Assembly (NCBI GenBank): GCA_021158405.1
Contig: JAGGUP010000094.1
Span: 1 to 34,702 of the forward strand
Source of the DNA: Bacteroidales bacterium
GTDB lineage: Bacteria; Bacteroidota; Bacteroidia; Bacteroidales; UBA12170
Reading direction: 5' to 3'
DNA length: 34,702 nucleotides
Shown here piece by piece: positions 33,398-34,702 of the stretch (positions are counted from its first letter, which is position 1; each line of letters opens with the position of its first letter). The notes beneath the pieces are model-generated. The model made no database searches and was not told the origin of the DNA. It saw nothing but the letters and a program-made list of their open reading frames with translations. The position numbers and the translations under genes were made by a program.

Positions 33398-34252
33398 ATG
33401 GCCGAACAAATCAGCTCTAAAAAGAATAAGAACAAAAAGCAAGCGAAAGTTCATGATGAGAAAGAGATGACATTCTGGGATCATCTTTCTGAACTGCGTG
33501 GCACTTTTGTACGATCGATTTTGGCGATAGTCCTGTTGGCTATTATTGCTTTTGCAAACAAATATTTCATCTTTAATAATATTGTACTAGCTCCAAAAGA
33601 CTCTAGTTTTATTACCAATCGCATACTTTGTTCTCTCGGCCAGCTCCTAAACATAAACTACTTCTGCATAAAAGAGTTGTCTTTAGTCATTATAAACATC
33701 AATATGTCGGGGCAATTTATGACCCATATGTATATCAGTTTTGTTGCCGGATTTATTGTCGCTGCACCTTATATTATTTTTGAGTTTTGGCGCTTTATAA
33801 AACCTGCACTTTATGATATTGAGCGTAAAAATTCCGGCAGCGCTGTAATTGTCAGTTCATTGTTATTCTATTTTGGTGTGCTCTTTTCCTATTTTTTGAT
33901 TGTTCCTTTGGCCTTAAATTTCTTTGGTTCATACCACGTTAGCGAAATGGTACAAAACCAGATATCTTTAAATTCATACATCAGCACCGTTGTTTCTGTA
34001 ACACTTTCTATTGGTTTGGTTTTCGAGCTCCCAATTGTGATTTATTTTTTAGCGCAAATCGGTATTGTAGATGTCGCATTTTTAAAAAAGAACCGAAAAT
34101 ATACGCTAGTTATCGTCTTAATACTTTCAGCCATTATCACTCCGCCCGATGTTTTTAGTCAGATTTTAGTTACTGTACCTTTAATGATTTTATACGAGTT
34201 TAGTATTTTGCTGGCGAAGAGGGCGGTGAAGGATGCTAAGGGAAAAGAATAA
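33398..34252 (+). CDS. tatC: Sec-independent protein translocase TatC
   Basis: Receptor for twin-arginine signal peptides in the cytoplasmic membrane. The 284-residue protein has the N-terminal MTFWDHLSELRGTFVRSI motif, six hydrophobic helices, FVAGFIVAAPYIIFEFWRFIKPAL in the loop/TM3 region, and the conserved FELPIVIYFLAQIGIV and AIITPPDVFSQ near the C-terminus. A lysine-rich N-tail precedes it. An insertion of about 30 residues between TM1 and TM2 (LAPKDSSFITNRILCSLGQL) is normal for Bacteroidota. tatA/tatB are not here. It gives the window its Tat pathway, relevant to the Tat-signal ferredoxin. Confidence 0.95.
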   Translation: MAEQISSKKNKNKKQAKVHDEKEMTFWDHLSELRGTFVRSILAIVLLAIIAFANKYFIFNNIVLAPKDSSFITNRILCSLGQLLNINYFCIKELSLVIININMSGQFMTHMYISFVAGFIVAAPYIIFEFWRFIKPALYDIERKNSGSAVIVSSLLFYFGVLFSYFLIVPLALNFFGSYHVSEMVQNQISLNSYISTVVSVTLSIGLVFELPIVIYFLAQIGIVDVAFLKKNRKYTLVIVLILSAIITPPDVFSQILVTVPLMILYEFSILLAKRAVKDAKGKE

Positions 34253-34576
34253 TATTATCTCTTAAAAAAACAATCAAACTAAGCCCTTTCTCATTTCAAA
34301 ATACAGATTATATAAGAATATAAACCATAACAGAATTTATTACAAAACTTATCCTACAAAGGCAAGATTTATTTTCTTCTATAATAGAACTTGTTTAAAG
34401 TCAAACAGCAAAACTGCGAGCGAACCCTTGGTGCCATTGACTTCAGCTATTTTTTGATTCCGTAGCTAAGGCTATGCAATAAAAAATGAGATTCGTCACT
34501 GGACACCAATGGTTTACTCTTGAAATTACTCTTTAACTTTAAACAAGTTCATATACAAATATTTAATAAGAGGTAT
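34253..34576. other. gene-free 324-bp gap between convergent genes
   Basis: The first 134 bp are AT-rich without a gene. The right half is filled by the palindromic element at 34387-34550. No simple terminator with T-run was seen for tatC or the hydrolase. Confidence 0.7.
34387..34550. mobile_element. 164-bp palindromic MITE-like element
   Basis: The ends are perfect 15-bp inverted repeats, GAACTTGTTTAAAGT at 34387-34401 and its complement at 34536-34550. The interior is also self-complementary: left GAGCGAACCCTTGGTG and TATTTTTTGATT against right GAGTAAACCATTGGTG and ATTTTTTATT (reverse strand), and the exact centre (34468.5) is TAGC-TAAG-GCTA. The transcript would fold into one long imperfect hairpin. 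There is no ORF. The flanks offer at most ATA as a target duplication. Confidence 0.75.
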
Positions 34577-34702
34577 CTATTTCCTCAAAAAACCCTCCAC
34601 ATCCTCAAAAAACACTTCCGGTTCTTCTGCATGCACCCAATGTGTTGCATTAGCAATTGTTTGGATTTCTGCCTGTGGGAAGGCATTTTTTAGCGGTAGT
34701 AA
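34577..34702 (-). CDS. alpha/beta hydrolase, C-terminal 41 residues (5' part beyond window)
   Basis: The minus strand from the window edge reads 41 codons to TAG: LLPLKNAFPQAEIQTIANAT then HWVHAEEPEVFFEDVEGFLRK. The pattern A-T/G-H-W-V-H-A-E-x-P-E-V-F is the C-terminal catalytic-histidine strand-helix of YbfF-type esterases and other alpha/beta hydrolases. The nucleophile Ser and acid are outside the window, so the substrate cannot be judged. It is convergent with tatC. Confidence 0.75.
   Translation of the reverse strand, partial: LLPLKNAFPQAEIQTIANATHWVHAEEPEVFFEDVEGFLRK

Follow-up and report, generated by a model that had tools for sequence, protein, structure and literature searches.

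The 164-bp palindromic element near the end of contig JAGGUP010000094.1 of a Bacteroidales bacterium, studied here within the whole 34,702-nucleotide stretch that was analysed (the window), is very probably a non-autonomous MITE of an IS5-family IS of the ISBf6-like group, presumably moved in trans by a transposase encoded elsewhere. Support for this reading comes from the multiple copies with their terminal inverted repeats (TIRs) and target duplications of 3 bp, from a locus in a congener that is free of the element, and from a matching IS and a decayed fragment of such a transposase in the element's own genome. The central hairpin of the element is moreover a module common to at least three MITE families, which we call A (that of the window copy), B and C.

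A preliminary description of this DNA had reported perfect 15-bp TIRs and a central TAGC/GCTA pair on one midpoint, and this proved exact: the two TIR 15-mers are perfect inverted repeats, and both they and the TAGC..GCTA pair (34463-34474) are centred on 34468.5. Within 33901-34702, perfect inverted stems reach a length of 15, compared with a maximum of 8-11 in mononucleotide shuffles (n = 20). The foldback suggested in the same description is also borne out: it is predicted for the whole element both as RNA (-56.9 kcal/mol, z -8.66) and as DNA (-30.8 kcal/mol, z -6.49), a stability equalled by 0 of 200 shuffles for either molecule, and a 47-nt arm pair is 74% complementary. The ORF list contains no ORF of at least 80 aa within 34387-34550. 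The parts of the element are collected in Table 1.

Table 1 Features of the family A copy in the window (positions on contig JAGGUP010000094.1).
Feature	Position	Strand	Evidence
164-bp MITE, family A copy	34387..34550	.	13 copies in own genome, fold z-scores, relatives in G008 and G393
Left TIR, GAACTTGTTTAAAGT	34387..34401	+	14/15 against the end of the IS5-family IS (G393)
Right TIR, reading GAACTTGTTTAAAGT on the minus strand	34536..34550	-	Perfect inverted match to left TIR
Left target-site duplication, ATA	34384..34386	.	Exact 3 bp in 10/10 testable copies; cross-copy control 8/90
Right target-site duplication, ATA	34551..34553	.	Same 3-bp comparison as left side
Central core hairpin, TTCCGTAGCTAAGGCTATGCAA	34458..34479	+	C34460/C34477 mismatch; common to MITE families B and C
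Helix 2 (covarying arm), left side	34418..34433	+	7/12 helix pairs changed on both sides between lineages
Helix 2 (covarying arm), right side	34504..34519	+	Pairs with 34418..34433

Rather than a single-copy spacer, which the preliminary description had set against its own proposal, the element is a repeat. Thirteen copies, each on a different contig, are present in its own genome (G000; 187 contigs totalling 2.94 Mb, 96.3% complete). Eleven are complete and the other two are truncated by contig ends; identity to the query is 93-100%, and pairwise identities among the complete copies (n = 11) are 0.92-0.99. An exact 3-bp duplication borders all ten complete copies that have at least 3 flank bases on both sides (ATA, AAT, GAT, TAT, AAA, ATT, ATT, ACT, GAT and ATT); when left and right flanks were swapped between copies, 8 of 90 combinations matched at 3 bp, and a 4-bp match was found in none of the copies. 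The eleventh complete copy (L004) has only two left-flank bases, both of which agree. All 13 copies lie outside any clear gene, in convergent, divergent and tandem gaps, as judged from stop-to-stop ORFs of at least 80 aa with starts uncalled; for L004, L017 and L018, at contig ends, the gene context comes from one side only, and at L005, L008 and L016 a stop-to-stop frame extends partway into the element. The copies occur in both orientations and adjoin unrelated genes. The element therefore combines the hallmarks of a MITE, namely short length without coding capacity, TIRs, a constant 3-bp duplication and near-identical copies at unrelated sites. The same genome also contains a lone perfect GAACTTGTTTAAAGT 15-mer without the element (L027, on contig C57).

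In the window, the element sits in a convergent gap, as had been stated beforehand: tatC (PF00902) ends at 34252, and a minus-strand ORF with its stop at 34577 is cut by the contig end. This ORF resembles an alpha/beta hydrolase, in that a 30-residue piece of the corresponding ORF in congener G006 matches hydrolase families with E values of 0.0002-0.01, all below cut-offs; the 41 residues that lie in the window match none of them. Among the 10 other genomes of the genus, 7 have TatC, and in 6 of these about 1.5 kb of sequence follows it; within 1.5 kb behind tatC, none of these 6 congeners contains an exact 13-bp TIR or the core. In G004, whose TatC is the most similar (83%), the TatC and hydrolase ORFs stand end to end and convergent without the element, in a synteny comparison that is not base-precise. 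An ORF between tatC and the next gene, absent from G004 and from the window (34253-34576; L264-L269), was seen in G006 and G010, where the hydrolase follows it, and in G009, G002 and G001, where a different minus-strand ORF does.

The position of the window copy between convergent genes, together with its strong fold, is what would be expected of a bidirectional terminator or mRNA-stabilising palindrome serving these genes. We regard this as very unlikely, because the other copies include some in divergent and tandem gaps and no terminator-like site (a G+C-rich stem plus U run) is present within 34387-34550, the sole site found lying at 34670-34685; the earlier judgement that the element is more than a terminator thus holds. 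The MITE may nevertheless affect neighbouring genes as a side effect.

Members of family A were also found in other genomes. Within the genus, G008 contains divergent members, the best long match having 80% identity and all three pieces being cut by contig ends. The exact TIR occurs in 8 of 393 genomes, including the element's own; apart from G000 and G008, it is found once per genome in 6 genomes, none of which showed a paired element. G008 (3.1 Mb) also has three isolated perfect GAACTTGTTTAAAGT 15-mers to which no element is attached (L051, L052 and L053), compared with a single occurrence of the reversed control pattern. Scanning genome contigs for GAACTTGTTTAAAGTYAAA returned 24 stretches. 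In 8 of them a mate end with no more than a single mismatch lies less than about 300 bp away, and 6 of these 8 belong to the Prolixibacteraceae MAGs PL23b_bin.91 (G393), PL24a_bin.47 and UBA12447. Across these three MAGs (G393, G394 and G395), sites matching GAASTTGTYWAAAGTTRAA with at most 2 mismatches number 75, 101 and 26, respectively, against 6, 7 and 7 for the reversed control, whereas G008 (11 versus 7) and the Parabacteroides MAG G396 (2 versus 5) show no clear excess.

Six elements fetched from G393 have the same layout as the window copy (five of 164 bp and one, L201, of 176 bp) and are 69-77% identical to copy L002, so that by these measures they plainly belong to the same family. 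Among nine fetched elements from G393 and G394, the 3-bp duplication is exact in five and off by one base in the other four, with a cross-copy control of 4/72. Elements with the same TIR that lack the core, 163-243 bp in length, exist as well. Paired TIR sites only 68-69 bp apart at G393:C7:16030-16097 and C37:172598-172666 suggest very small elements with the same ends. Separately, in two Crocinitomicaceae / Flavobacteriales MAGs, a lone left half of a family A element (L102 and L121) seems to occupy equivalent positions, flanked by one and the same pair of genes; beyond the TIR, the match of L121 to L199 is better than 500 of 500 shuffles and that of L102 is reached by 1 of 500, while their matches to the window copy are weaker, being reached by 14 and 57 of 500 shuffles. 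Among viral contigs with a TIR hit, a mate and a duplication were absent from the surrounding 6 kb, L159 alone showing a weak pair with four mismatches; one further TIR hit lacked a nearby mate. The one family A element queried had no match in plasmids or phages.

The TIR leads to a likely mover. A DDE_Tnp_1 search of the Prolixibacteraceae MAGs (35 matches, 30 fetched) yielded an apparently complete 891-bp IS in G393 (L244:1460-2350), with ends GAAGTTGTTTAAAGTT / GAAGTTGTCAAAAGTA and a TTC duplication. The only long open frame in it spans 260 codons, with no start assigned, and scores 137.5 bits against NCBIfam NF033580 'IS5 family transposase' (cut-off 110); it also matches Pfam PF13340, PF13359 and PF01609. 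The MITE and this IS have little in common beyond the TIR, where 14 of 15 positions agree. The element's own genome carries a decayed transposase fragment (G000:C35:46784-47065; 98 aa at 46% identity to the G393 protein, with 6 stops), whose end, GAGCTTGTTTAATGTTTCCGTAATAAAAT, agrees with the G393 IS end at 26 of 29 positions and with the MITE TIR at 13 of 15. Taken together, the ends held in common with an IS encoding an IS5-family transposase and the decayed piece in the same genome indicate that, on the features tested, the element is a MITE of an IS5-family IS.

Searching the 11 genomes of the genus with the G393 transposase protein matched only the C35 fragment. No intact parent was found in these 11 genomes, in which assembly gaps could hide one: of 33 DDE_Tnp_1 matches, 30 were fetched and had no paired TIR-type ends, as was also the outcome for the 17 of these loci put through a general end search. 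Further relatives of the transposase are present in 680 plasmid records, the best 15 of which, those listed, have 47-53% identity over 91-99% of it and include ISBf6 of Bacteroides fragilis. Three of the four fetched from Bacteroidota plasmids (those of Adhaeribacter, Bernardetia and Pontibacter) have GAA..TGTTTA-like ends related to those of the MITE. Within those best 15 of 680, the ISBf6-like IS5-family ISs thus rank with the nearest annotated relatives that the transposase has; unlike the MITE they are autonomous, and the ISBf6 end, GAAGTGATTTAAACTT, is more distant.

In the mechanism that we favour, an IS5-family transposase of the ISBf6-like group (DUF4096 plus DDE domain), encoded elsewhere, would recognise GAASTTGTYWAAAGTTRAA ends and move the MITE, leaving the 3-bp target duplication. 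We infer that the copies in G000 were moved in trans by a transposase of this type, and this genome would now keep just the decayed gene fragment with one end, no active parent being left.

Two other candidate parents were rejected: G395:C10:1135-2902 has no matching duplication and only a piece of another transposase, and G393:C23:42900-46050 has no matching duplication and contains ordinary thioredoxin-like genes, the gene names being judged by eye. Two further stretches came to light. One, of about 2.4 kb, at G394:C80 (L240), is bounded by GAAGCTGTTTAAATTT / GAAGCTGTCTAAAAAT ends and a 3-bp duplication, and its two transposase-like frames, which overlap, look unlike the IS5 type when judged by eye; the other, at G000:C146 (L072), is an apparently intact IS with TGAGACCTTTGCAA ends, resembling the ISPg1 and BrickBuilt TIRs as given in excerpts of PMC4596501.

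With its nearly fixed mismatch, the central hairpin of the element also calls to mind REP-like palindromes, whose movement depends on a single-strand transposase (HUH/IS200-type, RAYT). REPs have a central hairpin with a mismatch. Perfect TIRs combined with exact target duplications mark double-strand DDE transposition, and HUH transposition is not known to leave a target duplication. Because the TIRs are perfect, the 3-bp duplications are exact in 10 of 10 cases and the matching IS encodes a DDE enzyme, the chance that the element is REP-like appears negligible.

We then compared the paired structure across 19 family A members, comprising the 11 complete G000 copies, two G008 pieces and the six G393 elements; this alignment excluded the partial G000 copies, two in number, and L012, the third piece from G008. 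A standard pair occupies 95.6% of cells in 44 named pairs, a figure biased towards pairing because the structure was drawn from the same alignment plus the TIR. Thirteen of the 44 pairs have changed on both sides, whereas structures slid by 1-3 columns give 0-4 such pairs and 1 of 500 shuffles reaches 13; further pair types number 22, which is not above shuffles (mean 24.0; 480 of 500 reach 22). It is mostly between lineages that these two-sided changes are seen. Among the G000 copies, a single two-sided change contrasts with 15 one-sided ones (6 with the pair kept and 9 with it broken; 3 of the 15 stem from a one-base insertion in L007), and substitutions are similarly frequent at paired (17 over 88) and unpaired positions (21 over 75). 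Such uncompensated changes within one genome indicate that copies drift after insertion. Moreover, G-U cells (20, in 8 pairs) are hardly in excess of A-C cells (16, in 9 pairs), arguing that there is no overall preference for an RNA strand; the core pair 77-95 is exceptional, being G-U or A-U in 19 of 19 members, and unpaired blocks are conserved among family A members.

These data bear on the second half of what had been proposed for the element, which was described as either a non-autonomous foldback/MITE family or a long structured RNA. An RNA kept by the host, whether regulatory or the product of a small RNA gene, would account for the very stable fold, the 13 pairs changed on both sides, the conserved unpaired blocks and pair 77-95. 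One-strand RNA selection would, however, favour G-U over A-C, and covariation that occurs between lineages, hardly within a genome and without a G-U bias argues against a host RNA. The element also has no Rfam match up to E = 1, and its copies stand in both orientations by unrelated genes. We thus consider a host RNA most unlikely and retain the MITE half of the proposal, on the strength of the copies, TIRs, 3-bp duplications and IS5-family match. It seems that the active lineage regains its pairing, whether through the importance of pairing for amplification or by template switching between the arms.

The core of the element extends beyond family A. Seven of 247 genomes, the element's own among them, contain the pattern GCATAGCYNTRGCTAYGGAA, and none contains its reversed control. 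Outside G000 it is listed at 25 places, of which 22 were fetched (3 of G002 were left out), giving 18 complete MITE-like elements, 2 truncated ones and 2 at contig edges. Family B comprises 16 delimited elements in G000, G002, G009 and G183, with ends ATACCA..TGGTAT (a further G000 copy, L067, was not delimitable and is outside this count), and family C comprises 4 elements in G008, G077 and G185, with TAGACTTTATAATG-like ends. All three families measure 161-164 bp, except for the 176-bp L201, and in each of 11 elements examined the core lies at most 2 bp from the centre. For all 20 family B and C elements, folding predicts paired outer arms, without a shuffle control; in L226 and L227 the inner part is predicted as three hairpins instead. 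With the boundary shifted by one base, we observed probable 3-bp duplications in both families, TWA in 14 of 16 family B elements (cross-copy rate 0.41) and AWT in 4 of 4 family C elements (0.50). The support is weaker than for family A, since the boundary was picked afterwards (five boundaries and eight lengths were tried) and the target preference is strong, the constant TA flank being uninformative. One element each of families B and C had no match in plasmids, the core had none in viral contigs, and B-type ends were absent from the genus DDE_Tnp_1 loci already fetched.

Similarity between the families is concentrated in the core. In 37 of 39 cross-family pairs, the elements align above the best of 200 shuffles, over spans of 22-29 bp (A-B) and 37-63 bp (A-C) that cover the core; with the core masked, 2 of 39 do so, each by one point. 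An alignment of the core from 10 cross-family elements has 15 invariant columns, and the C-C mismatch is present in 9 of the 10, with T-C in L068. The TIR occurs without the core, and the core occurs with other TIRs.

Descent of A, B and C from one ancestor, with arms and ends rewritten and the centre kept, is the explanation towards which we lean. Convergence, or exchange of the core between unrelated MITEs, has a smaller though considerable probability: it fits the near-complete loss of cross-family similarity on masking and the existence of TIR-A elements lacking the core, but the central position of the core, the 161-164-bp length (bar the one 176-bp element) and the 3-bp duplications, probable in B and C, amount to more than one exchanged block explains. 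We tentatively suggest a Bacteroidota superfamily of foldback elements of about 160 bp, whose unit would be the 22-bp hairpin TTYCRTAGCYANGGCTATGCAA with its nearly fixed C-C mismatch; interchangeable arms and TIRs would let it exploit several 3-bp-duplicating transposases, and the hairpin would have an amplification role of its own. For example, it might provide a binding site, function in nucleation or against cruciforms, or give a signal keeping the palindrome tolerable. Selection on the core, if it occurs, would implicate some step of MITE amplification besides end recognition; should self-templated correction be what keeps the arms paired, the elements would form a natural record of such a mutation process.

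In titles and abstract starts of the open-licence literature, we recognised no description of the window element or of its core, and the sole match to the string GCATAGCCATAGC was a plant work, unrelated by title. Correia elements, from other hosts, are short TIR-flanked MITEs, often adjoining genes. The Nezha, ERIC and RUP elements named in PMC3733652 are likewise short, TIR-flanked and often next to genes, a likeness by description only, from parts of that paper, and they belong to other hosts. MITECca01 of Cardinium (PMC9769881) similarly represents a MITE amplified from one IS with inverted repeats kept, but its parent is IS982, it measures about 240 bp, and a whole-length foldback is not mentioned in the excerpts of that report. 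Close parallels exist in Porphyromonas gingivalis, with its IS5-derived MITEs BrickBuilt, MITE239, MITE464/PgRS and MITE700 (PMC4596501, in excerpt). Like the family described here, these belong to the Bacteroidales, have about 10-20 copies each and carry TIRs that equal or closely resemble the ends of ISPg elements of the IS5 family, and BrickBuilt is intergenic and without a transposase remnant. They differ in their TIRs (GAGACC.., ACGTCA..); BrickBuilt and 464/PgRS contain internal tandem repeats, BrickBuilt duplications are variable, and the excerpts mention no common central hairpin. The window MITE is therefore an ordinary IS5-type element of a kind already known in Bacteroidales from the passages of PMC4596501 cited above, and the fixed centre with exchanged ends across MITE families is the new and unexpected part.
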